Assembly (NCBI GenBank): GCA_902786245.1 | Contig: CADABS010000002.1 | Location: 1 to 64,000 of the forward strand | Length of the DNA stretch: 64,000 nt | Direction: 5' to 3' | Origin: an uncultured Erysipelotrichaceae bacterium | GTDB lineage: Bacteria; Bacillota_I; Bacilli_A; Erysipelotrichales; Erysipelotrichaceae | Shown: one piece after another, positions 35,207 to 42,549 of the stretch | Layout: the number at the start of each line of letters is the position of its first letter | Position numbering within the stretch: position 1 is the first letter of the stretch | The notes under the pieces: generated by a model | The model's database searches: none | The model's input: the letters and a program-made list of their open reading frames with translations, nothing else | What the model was told of the DNA's origin: nothing | Made by a program: the position numbers and the translations under genes

Positions 35207-35232
35207 GGGATGTGCAACAGCGCATCTCTTTT
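35207..35232 (+). terminator. Terminator between convergent M42 peptidase and glycosyltransferase genes
   Basis: GGGATGTGC (35207-35215) pairs, with two G-T wobbles, with GCGCATCTC (35220-35228), followed by TTTT. The T-run touches the stop codon of the minus-strand gene. Confidence 0.75.
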
Positions 35233-36250
35233 ATTGTGCCTGCGCGGATCTGCGCAGAACGGATTCATAGACTGCTTTCAGCTGCTGGCCGATGATTCTG
35301 ATATTCCGGTCGGCAGCTACCTGGTATCCGCCGCTGCCGGTACGGGGCAGTCTTCCTTCAATCACGCCCCGCAGGATCGTCTCGAAATCTTTATTGCATG
35401 TGCCGAGCCAGCAGTTTTTGCCGGAAACGGCCCAGGCATCATAGGCACCGATATCGCGCAGCACGGCCGTCTGTCCGGAGGCGAGTGCTTCCAGAACGAC
35501 AATGCCTTCCGTTTCTTCATAGGAAGGAAAGAAGAACGCATCGGCACCGGAGAAGGCACCTTTGATGATATCGCCGCTGATATATCCGGGCAGTATGACA
35601 TTATCCGGTTTTCTGTCCAGTGCCTTGATGACTTTGGAAGACAGCAGGATCCTGGAAAGACTGCCGAACCAGATGAATGTGTATTCCGGCATGTTCCGGG
35701 CAACTTCCATGAAATCGATCAGTCCTTTGCGCTCAAACAGCAGACCGACGCTGATGATGACCTTTTCCTGCGGGGAGAGATGGAAATATTCACGGAATGC
35801 ATTTTCCCGCTCGGTGTCTTTTGCATAGTCTTCCAGGCAGATGCCGTTGGAGATGGCATAGACCGGCATCTTCAGACCGTATCCCTCCAGCAGCCGTTTG
35901 GAATAGGGGGTCGGGGTGATCAGGGCATCGGCGGAACGGTACAGCGAAACGATCCGGTGGTTGAAAAAAGGCGCAACCAGATTGGAGAAATTAAAGCTGT
36001 TCCGGAAATCCTCTTTGGTGGAATGGGCATGGTAAATGACAGGTTTTCCCATTTTCCTGGCATTATGGATAACGATCTGCGAAGCTGCACCGGTTGTATT
36101 GATATGCAGAATGTCATAATCCTGCGAACGCGGATTGGTCGCATAGTCGATGCCGGCATATTCGAGCGCCTGTTTCTGATGGCGCATGGCCCGTCCGATT
36201 CCCGACTGTCCGATCAGTTCTTCATCTTCGAAATACAGCAGTACTTTCAT
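35231..36250 (-). CDS. GT4 glycosyltransferase, CpoA/LafB-like glycolipid synthase, 339 aa
   Basis: The N-terminus (MKVLLYFEDEELIGQSGIGR, then HQKQALEYAGIDY and DILHINT) closely resembles streptococcal CpoA/LafB, which adds the second sugar to monoglucosyl-diacylglycerol, the lipoteichoic acid anchor. The GT-B C-terminal half has ISVGLLFERKG and the GT4 nucleotide-sugar motif PSYEETEGIVVLEALA (EX7E form). It is a peripheral membrane enzyme without clear helices. It is divergent from the flippase-like gene and LafA-like gene, which supports one glycolipid pathway. On the opposite strand, the same DNA is open for 354 codons, but that frame has no recognisable protein. The sugar transferred (glucose or galactose) is not evident. 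Confidence 0.85.
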   Translation of the reverse strand: MKVLLYFEDEELIGQSGIGRAMRHQKQALEYAGIDYATNPRSQDYDILHINTTGAASQIVIHNARKMGKPVIYHAHSTKEDFRNSFNFSNLVAPFFNHRIVSLYRSADALITPTPYSKRLLEGYGLKMPVYAISNGICLEDYAKDTERENAFREYFHLSPQEKVIISVGLLFERKGLIDFMEVARNMPEYTFIWFGSLSRILLSSKVIKALDRKPDNVILPGYISGDIIKGAFSGADAFFFPSYEETEGIVVLEALASGQTAVLRDIGAYDAWAVSGKNCWLGTCNKDFETILRGVIEGRLPRTGSGGYQVAADRNIRIIGQQLKAVYESVLRRSAQAQ

Positions 36251-36318: not shown

Positions 36319-36409
36319 CCGTGAACGATAGAACAGTGCCCAACGAAATTATATTATAAAAACGGGCTTCTGCCACCAGATGTTGAAAGGGCGCCAACGC
36401 TGCAGATGA

Positions 36410-36437
36410 ATGACTGTGCGTACGGCAGGAGTATAAT
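36410..36437 (+). promoter_or_regulatory. Promoter of the flippase-like/LafA-RecX operon
   Basis: ATGACT (36410-36415), a 16-base spacer, and TATAAT (36432-36437). The ATG at 36444 follows 6 bases later, so transcripts from this promoter would be nearly leaderless. An AGGAG at 36427-36431 would serve only longer transcripts. Confidence 0.55.
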
Positions 36438-36443
36438 GGATAT

Positions 36444-37553
36444 ATGAAGAACAAACTGAAGGAATGGATGCGTTCACCCGCATTCAATATAGGACTGATC
36501 GTGCTCCTGACGGGCTGCGTTCTTTTTGTGACGGTCCGCCATGACGGGAAAGAAATCTTTTCCGTGCTGCGCTCGGTCAGTATCCCCGGACTCATCGGCA
36601 TCATCTGCCTGATGATCTTTGAAAGAGTACTGCATGGCTGGGGTCTGAAATACGAATGCAATCAGGCCCATCCCCATTACACGCTGAAACAGGGCTTTCT
36701 CAATGCATATACAGCCGGACTGTTCTGCGGTATCACACCGGGTGCCAGCGGCGGTCAGATCGCCCAGGCATTTCTGTTTCACCGGCAGGGGATCCCGGCA
36801 GCCCATTCCGCCGGTATACTATGGCTTGATTTCATCGTGTATCAGTCGGTGATGACGCTGTTCGTGCTGTTCCTGCTGATCATGCGTTTTCATTATTTCT
36901 ACAGCAATTATTCACAGTTCTTCCTGATCGTTCTGGGCGGATTTGCCATCAGCTCCGCAATCATCGTATTTCTCTGGCTGCTTACCCGCTCGCCGAAGTT
37001 CTATACATGGCTGACGACGAAGGGCATTCATATCGCTTCAAAGCTGCATATCGTCAGGGATGAAGAAGCCGCTCTGCGGAAACTGGACGGACTGCTGCAG
37101 GATTTTGCCCGTGAGCTCGTCGTGCTGCAGACCCATAAAAAGATGATCTGGCTGCTTGGACTGGAAAATCTGACCCGGCTTGTCATATACTACAGTGTGC
37201 CGTACTTCTGTGCCAAAGCACTGCATATCCCGATCGGGCCGGAGAGGCTTCTGGATATCATATCGCTGAGTTCTTTTGTGGCAATGGTCAATGCATTTCT
37301 GCCGATGCCCGGTTCCAGCGGCGGTACGGAAGCGACATTTGTGCTGATGTTTTCGACGATATTTGATACAGTAGATGCAGTATCAATCATGCTGCTGTGG
37401 CGGTTTGTGACATACTATCAGACACTGATCATCGGTACATGCGCATATCTCTATGCCAAATCTCTGCCGCCGGTGCCCATCAGCGAAAAAGAAATCGCTG
37501 TGCCGCGGACATATACCTCTGCAGCGATGAACAACGAAGGAGAATCTGAATGA
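36444..37553 (+). CDS. Flippase-like (UPF0104/MprF N-terminal type) membrane protein, 369 aa
   Basis: A polytopic protein with about eight membrane helices. It has the family features GLKYECNQAH, GLFCGITPGASGGQIAQAFL (about residues 90-110) and a near C-terminal MVNAFLPMPGSSGGTEATF. This domain is shared with the flippase part of MprF lysyl-phosphatidylglycerol synthase. Placed between two glycolipid glycosyltransferases, it probably moves the diglycosyl-diacylglycerol across the membrane. The stop overlaps the LafA-like start by 4 bases. The transported lipid is inferred, not shown. Confidence 0.85.
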   Translation: MKNKLKEWMRSPAFNIGLIVLLTGCVLFVTVRHDGKEIFSVLRSVSIPGLIGIICLMIFERVLHGWGLKYECNQAHPHYTLKQGFLNAYTAGLFCGITPGASGGQIAQAFLFHRQGIPAAHSAGILWLDFIVYQSVMTLFVLFLLIMRFHYFYSNYSQFFLIVLGGFAISSAIIVFLWLLTRSPKFYTWLTTKGIHIASKLHIVRDEEAALRKLDGLLQDFARELVVLQTHKKMIWLLGLENLTRLVIYYSVPYFCAKALHIPIGPERLLDIISLSSFVAMVNAFLPMPGSSGGTEATFVLMFSTIFDTVDAVSIMLLWRFVTYYQTLIIGTCAYLYAKSLPPVPISEKEIAVPRTYTSAAMNNEGESE

Positions 37554-39547
37554 GAATAGGACTGTTTTCAGACACGTTTCCGCCGGATATCAACGGCGTT
37601 GCCAACAGTACGAATATTCTGTACCGTGAACTGACAGAACACGGCCACGATGTATACGTGGTTGCGACATATAACGGCCTGATGGGCTATGAATGGGATG
37701 AGACCGGCCATATCCTGCGGCTTGCCGGTGTGAAGCTGAAGTTTCTCTATGGCTATAATCTGACCGGACCGATCCATGAAGAAGCCCTGCGGGAAATCGA
37801 AAAGCTGCATCTGGATATCATCCATGTGCAGACCGAATTCGGCGTCGGCATGTTTGCGCGGATCTGCGCAAGACGCCTCGATATACCGATCGTTTCAACC
37901 TATCATACGACCTATGAAGACTATACCCATTATCTGAATTTCCTGCATTCGGAGATACTCGACGGCTGGATGAAGAAGGGCGTCGCCATTGCCTCAAGAC
38001 TGGTCGGCGACAGCACCGATGAAGTCATCACCCCGAGCGAAAAGACAAAGGAACTGCTGGAGGGATACCGGGTATCGCGGGAAATCGAAGTGATTCCGAC
38101 CGGTCTGCCGCTGGACAGCTTTTCGCCGGACCTGCTCAATCCTGAGCTGTATACGGAAATACGCAGGGAATTCGGCTTCAGTGAAAAGGACAGGGTCATC
38201 ATCTATGTCGGCCGTCTGGCGGAAGAAAAAGCCCTGGATCTTGTTATCCGGGGATTTGCCGAGGCAGATAAACGGAAAATACCGGTGAAGCTGCTGATCG
38301 TCGGCGGCGGACCTGATTTCGGTCATCTGCAGGAGATGGCAGAACAGCTCGGCATTTCAGACATGGTCCGGCTGGCCGGTCCGCGGCCTGCCAACCAGGT
38401 TCCGGATTTCTACCGGGCTGCCAATGCTTTTGTCTCTGCCAGCCTTTCGGAAACACAGGGCATGACATTCATCGAAGCGCTCGCTTCCGGACTGCCGCTG
38501 TTTGCCCGCAGGGATGAAGTTCTCGCCGATCTGCTGATCGATGGAGAGACCGGCTGGTATTTTTCCTCGCCGGAGGACTTTGCGGACCGTCTGGAACAGT
38601 TTGTCCGACTGAGCGATGCGGAGCTTTCCGCGATTTCTCAAAGATGCGTACAGCAGGTAAAGCCGTACAGCTCCGAAATCTTCTTTCAGAACATCATCCA
38701 GGTATATGAAAGAGTCATCCGGGACCATACGGAAAGCGTGACCGTCACAAAGACAGCACTGAAGGATACCTATGTCGATGTGACCGTGGAAGACAGCAGC
38801 CGCAAAGAGACCGGGTATCAGATCAGTCTGGATGATTATGATGTCCAGAACCTGAAGGCCGGCATGAAACTGAACGGCACTGCCGTACAGAAACTGCACA
38901 GCCTCAGTCTGATTGCCCGTACCTACCAGAGATGCATCCGCAAGCTTGCCGCAAAGGACCGCAGCGAAGCGGAGATGCGCACCTGGATCAAAGAGAATAC
39001 CGAATGCGGTGCAGAGCAGACGGATACGGTCATCGGACGTCTGAAGAAGCACGGATATATCGATGATGAGCGCTACTGCGAAAGCACGGTCAGATCGATG
39101 AGCGCTTCGCTGCACGGTCCCCGCCGGATCCATGATGATCTGAAGAAGAAGGGCATAGATGAAAGTCTGATCGAAAAGAATCTGGATGAAATCAGCGGAC
39201 AGCAGCCGGATCATGCCATGCAGTATGCCCGTAAGGTCATGCGCACGCATGAAGGCGGATCGGTCCGCCGGCTGATCAGCACCCTGCGCACCAAGCTGCT
39301 GCAGCAGGGCTATGAAGGCGCAATGATCGACCGGGTGATCAGTGAAATCGATTTTGCCGGCATTGAAGAAAAAGAAACAGAGAATCTGCGGGCAGCCGCT
39401 GCCAAAGCAGTCCGGCACTATAAGCGGAAATACGCGGGAAACGAACTGAAGAAACGCGTATATGCATCCTGCGCACAGCAGGGATATGACCATGAAGATA
39501 TTCAGAAGGTCATGGAAGAAACGGAGTGGAATGATGGTCAAAATTAA
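37550..39547 (+). CDS. LafA-like GT4 glycosyltransferase fused to a complete RecX, 665 aa
   Basis: Residues 1-390 form a GT-B glycosyltransferase resembling diacylglycerol alpha-glucosyltransferase: MRIGLFSDTFPPDINGVAN, VSTYHTTYEDYTHY, IYVGRLAEEKALD and SASLSETQGMTFIEALA. Residues 397-665 read as a full RecX, the modulator of RecA filaments: a beta-rich start VTVTKTALKDTYVDVTVED, then IARTYQRCIRKLAAKDRSEAEM and RLKKHGYIDDERYCESTVRS, and HGPRRIHDDLKKKGI. The frame is unbroken. A GTG at 38738 stands where RecX proteins normally begin, with GGAAAG close before it, so a separate RecX might also be made. I find no other recX in the window. The glucosyl-lipid role is supported by both upstream genes. 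Confidence 0.87.
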   Translation: MRIGLFSDTFPPDINGVANSTNILYRELTEHGHDVYVVATYNGLMGYEWDETGHILRLAGVKLKFLYGYNLTGPIHEEALREIEKLHLDIIHVQTEFGVGMFARICARRLDIPIVSTYHTTYEDYTHYLNFLHSEILDGWMKKGVAIASRLVGDSTDEVITPSEKTKELLEGYRVSREIEVIPTGLPLDSFSPDLLNPELYTEIRREFGFSEKDRVIIYVGRLAEEKALDLVIRGFAEADKRKIPVKLLIVGGGPDFGHLQEMAEQLGISDMVRLAGPRPANQVPDFYRAANAFVSASLSETQGMTFIEALASGLPLFARRDEVLADLLIDGETGWYFSSPEDFADRLEQFVRLSDAELSAISQRCVQQVKPYSSEIFFQNIIQVYERVIRDHTESVTVTKTALKDTYVDVTVEDSSRKETGYQISLDDYDVQNLKAGMKLNGTAVQKLHSLSLIARTYQRCIRKLAAKDRSEAEMRTWIKENTECGAEQTDTVIGRLKKHGYIDDERYCESTVRSMSASLHGPRRIHDDLKKKGIDESLIEKNLDEISGQQPDHAMQYARKVMRTHEGGSVRRLISTLRTKLLQQGYEGAMIDRVISEIDFAGIEEKETENLRAAAAKAVRHYKRKYAGNELKKRVYASCAQQGYDHEDIQKVMEETEWNDGQN

Positions 39548-40475
39548 AGATATGAAAGAAAGAGAGCGGTATGATATTCCGCTGCTCGTCAAGGAATGCA
39601 GAAACGGAACAACTTCCAAAGGCGCTCCATATCTGAATCTGGTACTGCAGGACAGCTCCGGAACGATCGACGCAAAATACTGGGATGTCAAACCGGCCGA
39701 TCTTGAGGTTGTCAAGACCGGAAGGATCGTGCAGTTTGCCTTTGATGTCCTGCTGTATAACGGCAGCCTGCAGCTGCGGGTCGCCCGGGCTTCCGCCATT
39801 GATGAAAACCAGGTGAAACTGGAAGAATATCTGATCTCGGCAGCCCAGCCCGAAGAAGCGCGCCGGCGCAGCCTGGATGAATATCTCGGGTCGATCCGGA
39901 ATGAGAATTACCGGAAGCTCGTCACCGGTCTGCTGGAACTGATCGGCGACCGCTATTTCTCCTATCCGGCAGCGTCCCGGATCCATCACAGCTATCTCGG
40001 CGGTCTGTCCGAGCATTCGCTTTCGATGGCATCGATGGCAGAGGATATCTGCCGCCATTATCCCCAGCTGAACCACGATCTGCTGATTTCCGGCGCTCTG
40101 ATCCATGATATCGGCAAGACCGCGGAAATGAGCGGAGCGGTATCGACGGAATATACACTGGAAGGAAAACTGGAAGGGCATATCTCTCTGGCCAACGGCT
40201 GGCTGACGGAAGTCGCTGCCCGTCTGGATCTGGATGATACCGAGGAATGCATTCTTCTGCATCATATGATCCTTTCCCATCACGGACACTATGAATTCGG
40301 TTCACCGGTTCTGCCGATGGTCATGGAAGCGGAAGTGCTGAGCCTGATCGACAATCTCGATGCGAGAATGAACACGATCACCCATGCCCTGGAATCCACG
40401 CCGGCAGGAGGCTGGACATCCAAGCTGTTCGCTCTGGAAAACAGACAGTTCTATAAGCCGAAGAAAGCGCAGTAA
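39531..40475 (+). CDS. yhaM: 3'-5' exoribonuclease YhaM (OB fold + HD domain), 314 aa
   Basis: An N-terminal OB-fold nucleic-acid-binding part (residues 1-90, GTIDAKYWDVKPADLEVVKT) is followed by an HD phosphohydrolase domain with HHSYLGGLSEHSLSMA and ALIHDIGKTAE (metal-binding HD) and LLHHMILSHHG. YhaM/CbfI trims RNA and DNA ends in Firmicutes. ATG 39531 and ATG 39534 are both usable with GGAG upstream. The start lies 17 bases inside the end of the GT-RecX gene, so the genes are coupled. Length matches the family (about 314 aa). Confidence 0.9.
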   Translation: MMVKIKDMKERERYDIPLLVKECRNGTTSKGAPYLNLVLQDSSGTIDAKYWDVKPADLEVVKTGRIVQFAFDVLLYNGSLQLRVARASAIDENQVKLEEYLISAAQPEEARRRSLDEYLGSIRNENYRKLVTGLLELIGDRYFSYPAASRIHHSYLGGLSEHSLSMASMAEDICRHYPQLNHDLLISGALIHDIGKTAEMSGAVSTEYTLEGKLEGHISLANGWLTEVAARLDLDDTEECILLHHMILSHHGHYEFGSPVLPMVMEAEVLSLIDNLDARMNTITHALESTPAGGWTSKLFALENRQFYKPKKAQ

Positions 40476-40482
40476 TCACGGT

Positions 40483-41793
40483 ATGGATATACGTTTGAAA
40501 ATCGTACAGCTGGCGCATGCGCTGCTGCAGAAGGCGGGAAGGGGCGGATCGTTTCCCGGTACGCTGGCACTGAAAATGGATCCGGATTTCATTCAGAAAT
40601 TCAAAATGCCGCCGGTCGTGATCCTGGTCACCGGAACCAACGGCAAGACGACGACCAACAATCTGATTGCGGAATCGCTGCGGGCAGCCGGACTCAGAAC
40701 CATCAACAACCGCCGGGGCGACAATCTCAATGTCGGCATCGCTTCGCTGCTGGCGGCTTCCTCTGACAGCGATTTCAATATCCGGGCGGATGCGGCGGTC
40801 ATTGAAGTCGATGAACTGACGCTCTACCGGCAGTTCAAAAACCTGAAGCCGACCCATCTGATCGTCAATAACTTCTTCCGCGACCAGCTCGACCGGGCCG
40901 GAGAGATGGAAACGATCATCCGGCGGATCCAGGAAGTTACGGAAGATTTTGACGGGCATATCATCCTGAACGGAGATGATCCCAATACGCTGCGGATCGC
41001 GGATACCGCCCACCGGGCAAAGATCAGCTATTTCTCCGTCGGACGCAATGCGCTCTCCAGAGAACAGACGGATGAGGCATCGGAAGGAAAGTTCTGTCCG
41101 CGCTGCGGCAGAGCGCTGCAGTATGAATACTATCAGTATTCCCATATCGGACGCTTTCACTGTCCCTATGACCATTTCGGTGTGATCGAGCCGGATGTAT
41201 ACATTGAAAAAGCAGACTTCGGAAACCAGACATTCACCTGGCAGGGGAAGGAATTCCATACCTTCCTGAACACCATCTACGGTGTCTATAACTGTGCCGG
41301 TGTACTGGCGGTGATGAAGACGCTGCGTCTGGATCCGTCCTTTGCCGATCAGGTGTTCTCCACCTTTGAAATCAAAGAGGGAAGAAACGAACGCTTTGAA
41401 CTGTCCGAGCCGTGCTATATCAATCTGATCAAGAATCCGACCGGAACGAATGAAACGATGAAATACATCACCGGCCGCAGCGAAGACATGAACCTGTGCA
41501 TCCTGCTCAATGACAACGACCAGGACGGACACGATGTCAGCTGGATCTGGGATGCCCATTTTGAAAGACTGAACATTCCCAATATCAAAACGATCGTATG
41601 TTCGGGCTTAAGAGCCTACGACATGGCTCTGCGTCTGAAATACGAAGGCCTGGAAGACCGGATCATCGTCATCGAAAACGCGAAGGACGCGGTGCACTGG
41701 CTGAATGAACAGCATATGCTCAGCTATATCATGGCGACCTATACCGCGCTGCATTCGACCCGCGCTCTGCTGCGCCGGGAGGCTGGAAAATGA
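40483..41793 (+). CDS. murT: Lipid II isoglutaminyl synthase subunit MurT, 436 aa
   Basis: With GatD, amidates the alpha-carboxylate of D-Glu in lipid II, using ATP and glutamine-derived ammonia. It is a Mur-ligase-like protein: P-loop VTGTNGKTTTNN (about 49-60), DELTLYRQFK, NNFFRDQLDRAGEME, a zinc ribbon with CPRCG (about 206) and CPYD (about 227), and a C-terminal DUF1727 domain with NPTGTNE and WIWDAHFE. ATG 40483 lies 7 bases after the yhaM stop; the ribosome binding site is weak (CACGGT). The stop overlaps gatD by 4 bases. Confidence 0.93.
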   Translation: MDIRLKIVQLAHALLQKAGRGGSFPGTLALKMDPDFIQKFKMPPVVILVTGTNGKTTTNNLIAESLRAAGLRTINNRRGDNLNVGIASLLAASSDSDFNIRADAAVIEVDELTLYRQFKNLKPTHLIVNNFFRDQLDRAGEMETIIRRIQEVTEDFDGHIILNGDDPNTLRIADTAHRAKISYFSVGRNALSREQTDEASEGKFCPRCGRALQYEYYQYSHIGRFHCPYDHFGVIEPDVYIEKADFGNQTFTWQGKEFHTFLNTIYGVYNCAGVLAVMKTLRLDPSFADQVFSTFEIKEGRNERFELSEPCYINLIKNPTGTNETMKYITGRSEDMNLCILLNDNDQDGHDVSWIWDAHFERLNIPNIKTIVCSGLRAYDMALRLKYEGLEDRIIVIENAKDAVHWLNEQHMLSYIMATYTALHSTRALLRREAGK

Positions 41794-42521
41794 AACTGAA
41801 AATACTATGGATGTATCATGATCTGATGGATCTGTACGGCGACAAGGGCAATGCCGAAGTGCTGAGAGTCCGGGCGCAGAAGCGGAATATCGAATGCACG
41901 GTCGATACATGCACATTGGGCCAGAAGGCGGATATTGCGGACTATGATCTGTTCTTCATGGGCGGCGGCGCTGACCATGAACAGTCGCTGATCTATGAAG
42001 ACCTGATCGCAAGGAAGCAGAACATCATCGATGCCATGCACAGCGGCACCGCATTTCTGCTGATCTGCGGCGGCTACCAGCTCTTCGGACAGTACTACCG
42101 CGACCAGGACGGAAAGACGATCGACGGTCTGGGCATTTTCGATTATTACACCGAGTCCACGGACCGCGATCACCGCTGTATCGGCAATATCGCAGTGGAA
42201 ACGACGATGGACGGAAAAACCTTCAAAGCAGTCGGCTTTGAAAACCATGGCGGCCAGACAAAGAATGTCAGCACACCCTTCGGCAGAGTTCTCAGCGGAC
42301 AGGGAAATACCTTCGGGAATGAATACGAAGGATTCATGAACGGCCAGGTGCTGGCGACATATATGCACGGACCGCTGCTGCCGAAGAATCCGATGATCGC
42401 CGATGCGCTGATCGCCAGAGCGCTGAAAAAGAACTATGGCCATGTGGAACTTGCACCGATCGACGATACACTGGAAAACAAGGCAAGGGAAACGATGCTG
42501 AAAAGACTCAAAGCATTATGA
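41790..42521 (+). CDS. gatD: Lipid II isoglutaminyl synthase glutaminase subunit GatD, 243 aa
   Basis: A class I CobB/CobQ-like glutamine amidotransferase that supplies ammonia to MurT. Motifs are FFMGGGADHEQSL, FLLICGGYQLFG with the nucleophile Cys (about 93), GFENHGGQT, and ATYMHGPLLPKNP with the His (about 192). The partner murT overlaps by 4 bases. A long palindromic terminator starts at the stop codon. Confidence 0.93.
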   Translation: MKLKILWMYHDLMDLYGDKGNAEVLRVRAQKRNIECTVDTCTLGQKADIADYDLFFMGGGADHEQSLIYEDLIARKQNIIDAMHSGTAFLLICGGYQLFGQYYRDQDGKTIDGLGIFDYYTESTDRDHRCIGNIAVETTMDGKTFKAVGFENHGGQTKNVSTPFGRVLSGQGNTFGNEYEGFMNGQVLATYMHGPLLPKNPMIADALIARALKKNYGHVELAPIDDTLENKARETMLKRLKAL

Positions 42522-42549
42522 GAAGGGACAATTGTTCCTTCTTTTTTTG
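42521..42549 (+). terminator. Terminator of the murT-gatD operon
   Basis: A 22-base near-perfect palindrome (AGAAGGGACAA / TTGTTCCTTCT, one G-T pair) is followed by seven T. Confidence 0.88.

Follow-up and report, generated by a model that had tools for sequence, protein, structure and literature searches.

A glycolipid-type glycosyltransferase joined in frame to RecX in the Erysipelotrichales

The window, a stretch of 64,000 nucleotides from an uncultured Erysipelotrichaceae bacterium, contains on its forward strand a fused gene (37550..39547) in which a GT4 glycolipid glycosyltransferase (GT) runs in frame into RecX, as identified by ORF, translation, Pfam, NCBIfam and conservation. The gene is best read, with a probability of roughly 75%, as encoding an ancient, operon-derived bifunctional polypeptide of ~75 kDa whose two functional domains act independently within one chain. 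The N-terminal half would be a retaining GT4 enzyme making a membrane glycolipid, and the C-terminal half an ordinary Firmicutes RecX limiting or remodelling RecA filaments. The joint would give coupled production of the two, with RecX passively riding on an enzyme of the membrane surface. The halves are probably independent, since several relatives have split them or lost one of them.

The ORF comprises 665 codons from ATG to TAA and is open in the window sequence, with no stop near codons 390-397. The continuous frame from GT4 into a complete RecX, read by the initial annotation, was thus confirmed by the ORF and also by Pfam and fold. The GT half covers residues 1-394 (37550..38731, forward strand) and has, according to Pfam, structure match and alignment, a GT-B fold with the EX7E motif at E301/E309. 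The RecX half covers residues 397-665 (38738..39544, forward strand) and consists, by Pfam and fold, of a beta region, a long helix and three-helix repeats. The Pfam GT domains span residues 14-355 above their gathering scores, and RecX_HTH1 (459-498), RecX_HTH2 (505-543) and RecX_HTH3 (608-655) score 42.7, 43.2 and 36.6 bits against a gathering cut-off of 26 each.

The AlphaFold2 model of the whole fused protein, built with an alignment of fused homologues as input, had a pLDDT of 88.5 and a pTM of 0.66; the latter value makes the orientation of one half to the other unreliable. In the model the GT closes with a helix at 375-394 and a beta strand at 397 opens RecX, leaving practically no linker between them; the initially proposed boundaries, 1-390 and 397-665, agree with this. 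Modelled alone, the RecX half reached a pLDDT of 95.8 and matched the solved RecX structure 3d5l with Z 16.5 (197 residues, rmsd 2.8, the N-terminal beta part included), 3e3v with Z 15.2 and 3c1d with Z 13.1. As modelled, it therefore has the RecX fold over its whole known length. The NCBIfam RecX equivalog NF010733 gave 134 bits over residues 433-659, below its cut-off of 240, which reflects sequence divergence in a domain that has the RecX fold and passes in Pfam. Control of RecA by this half is predicted from fold and family. The fused gene is the sole RecX of the source genome, and a RecA gene is present on another contig.

The GT half matched MshA, BshA, PimA and PimB' with Z 31-36, and the modelled GT-B fold together with EX7E identifies it as a GT4 retaining glycosyltransferase. 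Its best NCBIfam model was the alpha-monoglucosyl-diacylglycerol synthase (MGS) NF049988 with 221 bits over residues 1-395, under the curated equivalog cut-off of 400 bits, and it is consequently called MGS-like only. The product is most likely alpha-monoglucosyl-diacylglycerol or a close glycolipid, extended by the adjacent IagA/BgsA enzyme; the exact compound can only be predicted, as the score is 221 of 400 bits. That the product would be a glycolipid despite the sub-cut-off model is suggested by the flippase and IagA/BgsA neighbours.

Directly upstream lies a flippase-like gene (LPG_synthase_TM; 36444..37553, forward strand; PF03706, 134 bits), which shares a 4-nt ATGA overlap with the fused gene and is by synteny present also in most fused loci and in the sister groups. 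A gene for a yhaM-like 3'-5' exoribonuclease (39534..40475, forward strand) overlaps the fused gene at its 3' end; it was assigned by synteny and by NF010007 at 320 bits, under the cut-off of 460. A yhaM gene was found next to recX in every locus whose flank downstream of recX was read. The divergent gene at 35231..36250 (reverse strand) encodes an IagA/BgsA-family glycolipid glucosyltransferase of the second step (NF053513, 470.6 bits, over the cut-off of 460). The gene run ends in murT and gatD-like genes for lipid II amidation (40456..42521, forward strand; PF08353, PF07685) and is closed by a terminator-like stem at 42520-42543 found in the terminator scan.

In the region 36348-42543 of the window, the IagA/BgsA gene and the flippase are separated by divergent promoter-like sites, and the run of flippase, GT-RecX, yhaM, murT and gatD follows. 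The overlapping genes and the terminal stem place recX and the RNase gene inside an envelope operon. The linkage of recX to yhaM outlasts that of GT to recX, as yhaM (39462-40475 in the window) lies directly behind recX and overlaps it, whether the locus is fused, split or RecX-only, and likewise in the sister families f8, f10 and f19. The B. subtilis-type LexA box CGAACNNNNGTTCG, a consensus that may not be that of this order, had only chance-level matches, for which reason SOS control of recX by such a box was dropped. A LexA-type box was absent from the intergenic region upstream of 36444, the nearest one being at 36125 within the divergent gene.

A profile constructed from 21 fused proteins was searched over 316 Erysipelotrichales genomes and found matches in 304 of them. 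In 234 of the 316 genomes, covering both families of the order, a single match extended over both halves at E <= 1e-189; chance is excluded as an explanation, since all these carry the identical fusion. Carriers include type-strain isolates, and named isolates with the fusion are, among others, Bulleidia extructa W1219, Amedibacillus dolichus DSM 3991, Holdemanella porci, Faecalicoccus acidiformans DSM 26963, Sharpea azabuensis DSM 18934, Breznakia pachnodae and Erysipelothrix sp. HDW6A, the last with a complete chromosome. Among 395 genomes of the class, the fusion was confined to the order, and in the others the GT is unfused and 380-480 aa long. A search over the phylum gave matches from this class only; outside the class, the contig matches in Lachnospiraceae and Clostridia were loci with the GT alone and no fusion. 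A plasmid search with the RecX half returned distant RecX only, and a PHROGs search weak generic matches only.

The search of related genomes called for by the initial annotation thus recovered the fusion as the prevailing state, together with split versions in sister families and in the window's own genus. Close relatives do not all have separate genes, though some of the same genus do. V385 and V399 lay 14 residues apart in all 71 of the fused ORFs examined, E301 and E309 of EX7E were invariant in all 71, and so were D470, D506 and G587 of RecX. The median dN/dS was 0.07 for the GT and 0.06 for RecX in the five usable close pairs, indicating purifying selection. The fusion has been conserved for long in most genera, and the joint could matter.

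The sister families f8, f10 and f19 retain the order flippase-GT-recX-yhaM with GT and recX as separate genes. The start of their recX falls within the GT gene and is without exception in the +1 frame. The overlap of the two genes is 23 nt in most f8 and f19 pairs, and the GGAGG-like ribosome site of recX sits in Glu-Val codons of the GT. In loci L073-L078 and L090, the overlap is conserved (mostly 23 nt) and the recX ribosome site is embedded in GT codons. The junction of the fused gene, the 14 residues from V385 to V399 (38702..38746, forward strand), corresponds in the alignment to this GT/recX overlap. The spacing of homologous codons across it is 34-46 nt in sister pairs against 42 in all fused genes, so that a small indel in the overlap fuses GT and recX. 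The ancestor would then have had flippase, GT, recX and yhaM, with the start of recX embedded, in the +1 frame, in the 3' end of the GT gene, and one small frameshift in the overlap would have joined the two in the common ancestor of the Erysipelotrichales. That two neighbouring genes lost their boundary, one of the possibilities first raised, is therefore supported as the origin, in the form of an ancient frameshift in an overlap and not of a recent stop loss.

A single fusion event is indicated, because the junction is identical in both families, and this identity is a better argument for it than the trees. The tree of concatenated GT, RecX and YhaM agrees weakly with a single origin, with 57% SH-aLRT for the split between order and sister families (f1 99, f2 100). 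The tree of YhaM alone does not distinguish a monophyletic from a non-monophyletic order. The sequence of L068, which is frameshift-damaged, belongs to the Erysipelotrichales.

An origin by frameshift in an overlap, like the repeated re-splitting and one-sided loss described below, is also what would be expected if the joint were neutral, a frozen accident of overlapping genes whose selective value is only to keep both frames open. Such neutrality is a serious but less favoured possibility. The junction itself hints at constraint: the RecX halves of the 71 diverse fused sequences have a mean identity of only 29%, yet zero indels were found at the junction.

Within the order, GT and recX have been separated in several ways. 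In the window's own genus they are re-split in L052, L064 and L067 as adjacent and overlapping genes, and elsewhere in the family the same arrangement was found in L095 and L096. Among the 80 low-scoring genomes, 63 had RecX, and 38 of these, a few of them contig ends, were without a GT of the same family at E <= 1e-60. In the RecX-only loci recX is still directly before yhaM, and the GT has therefore been removed in place. The opposite loss is represented by G211 (locus L091), with an intact GT and no RecX found. On the tree built from YhaM, fused lineages changed on several occasions to another state, at least six times to RecX-only, three times to a stub and five times to split genes; the RecX-only locus L107 is there the sister of the stub locus L069.

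The second glycolipid enzyme IagA/BgsA (NF053513) was present in 128 of the 234 fused genomes and in 1 of the 38 RecX-only genomes, a comparison given without a p-value since the RecX-only lineages group together in the tree, and each of the 38 genomes cannot be counted as an event of its own. The GT half thus follows the glycolipid pathway, and RecX is kept for itself. G177 and G196, considered as cases of truncated GT or lost RecX, were rejected as contig ends, and the broken GT frames of G001 and G045 were left out of the decay evidence. In G179 and G183, near-complete genomes of the family, there were no candidates for either half, by masked sequence or double loss.

Other proteins were also encountered around these loci. 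L105:5000-6277 (G271) encodes a RecX with three amphipathic-looking N-terminal repeats of ~30 aa (AASAAREIGAPISQSIGRIYSNV and similar) in the usual place of the GT, an extension with no Pfam match. In L109:4277-6115 (G117), a GT4 of 612 aa with a C-terminal VTT (DedA-like) membrane domain lies beside an IagA/BgsA gene; G117 belongs to the window's genus and its recX is free. In L174, from an uncultured Clostridia MAG, a GT of the same family lies in a 773-aa frame which may carry another C-terminal domain.

These separations bear on whether the GT half could be a functional anchor that tethers RecX near membrane-associated RecA, with a spatial or lipid-state coupling to the envelope. The retention of the fusion in 234 genomes of one order, the two rigid domains modelled without a linker and the repeats that L105 has instead of a GT would all fit such a role, and E. 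coli RecA, in its bundles and storage bodies, associates with anionic phospholipids of the inner membrane (PMC6363387). Against it stand the many lineages in which RecX is not attached to a membrane enzyme or the genes are re-split, and the RecX of B. subtilis, a free protein of 264 aa that is active on the nucleoid (PMC3527212). The RecX-only relatives argue against a tether being essential, and this role of the GT half is unlikely. Slightly less likely still is the form in which RecA filament control would take place at the membrane or respond to it, the lineages that lost the GT having replaced the anchor, maybe with the L105 repeats, or changed the action of RecX. An obligate signalling link is not part of the preferred reading of two independent domains, given the lineages in which the genes are re-split, RecX persists after loss of the GT or a dead stub of the GT remains on RecX. 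The proposal of a true bifunctional protein accordingly stands as regards the single fused protein, given the gap-free junction in 71 of 71, the loss of ribosome sites and the in-frame stubs, but not as regards a tie between envelope synthesis and DNA repair, since several lineages have separated the halves again or lost one of them.

Ribosome sites were evaluated by predicted duplex energy with the anti-SD, for which the 5% quantile of the background was -6.3 kcal/mol. The GT starts of fused genes paired at about -9 kcal/mol (-8.8 at the ORF start in the window), most recX starts of the sister groups at -7 to -10 kcal/mol, and most yhaM starts within the 3' ends of fused genes at about -6 to -12 kcal/mol. 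The in-frame junction starts of the fused genes were mostly weaker than -4 kcal/mol and not conserved in position. Because the recX site is strong in sister pairs and weak in fused genes, the recX start has decayed after the fusion, and because it is lost from the fused genes, the product is likely to be one ~75 kDa protein and not two.

At three loci (L104, L108 and L069), decayed GT stubs beginning with the GT's own MRIG start are in frame with RecX. They scored 28.3, 13.2 and 6.7 bits, respectively, against the GT profile, while shuffled sequences reached at most 3.8. By their sequences they are shortened, catalytically dead GTs, the match of L069 being the weakest. Only translation of RecX from the GT start would lead one to expect that a dead stub is retained in frame.

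Release of RecX as a second product, by internal initiation (e.g. at GTG 38738) or by proteolysis, is improbable. The recX genes of the sister groups do begin with GTG inside the GT gene, and moderate junction sites exist in a few fused genes (-6.5 in L031 and L036, -9.5 in L038). The GTG first proposed as internal RecX start (38738..38740, forward strand) has, however, a duplex energy of only -4.0 kcal/mol, most other fused genes lack a start codon at this position, and the stubs stay in frame as if the GT start were the only one; that earlier proposal thus found no support.

An assembly or sequencing error merging two genes, conceivable as the window comes from a 102-contig draft, is ruled out for practical purposes by the identical junction in hundreds of genomes, complete isolate genomes included.

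A fusion of RecX with a glycosyltransferase was not found described in the open-access literature, subscription papers being outside this scope, and it is apparently undescribed before. Both halves belong to known families; the combination is new and order-defining, and does not make a new system. Through it, a whole order of host-associated (gut, oral) bacteria has its only RecX attached C-terminally to a membrane glycolipid enzyme, a fusion that standard annotation of either half would miss. The natural series of overlapping pair, fusion, re-split genes, dead stub and RecX alone offers a direct test of the value of the fusion, and the fusion also makes it possible to test whether RecA control is linked to the membrane.

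In comparison to known systems, the RecX half shares with Firmicutes RecX (B. subtilis YfhG, L. reuteri-type 3d5l, L. salivarius 3e3v) the length of ~265 aa, the N-terminal beta region, the three-helix repeats, the signature residues and the occurrence as single RecX of the genome, but differs in being the C-terminal half of a 665-aa glycosyltransferase protein. The B. subtilis study found Firmicutes RecX proteins to be 212-272 aa long and their genes to lack a conserved context (PMC3527212), whereas here the length is 665 aa and a GT-recX-yhaM neighbourhood is conserved over at least five families. With the GT4 glycolipid synthases (MGS, LafA/BgsB type; PimA/PimB') the GT half shares the GT-B fold and EX7E, and it is MGS-like also in its best NCBIfam model and in having a second enzyme of the IagA/BgsA family and a flippase as neighbours; unlike MGS, it scores below the cut-off and has RecX as a C-terminal extension. 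The GT4-VTT fusion of L109 resembles the fused gene in its glycolipid-type GT4, extra C-terminal domain and adjacent IagA/BgsA gene, but has the VTT membrane domain in place of RecX and stands in for the GT where recX is free. The overlapping GT-recX pairs of f8, f10 and f19 have the same gene order, neighbours and junction region as the fused gene, and differ from it in their two frames and in the strong ribosome site of their own recX.
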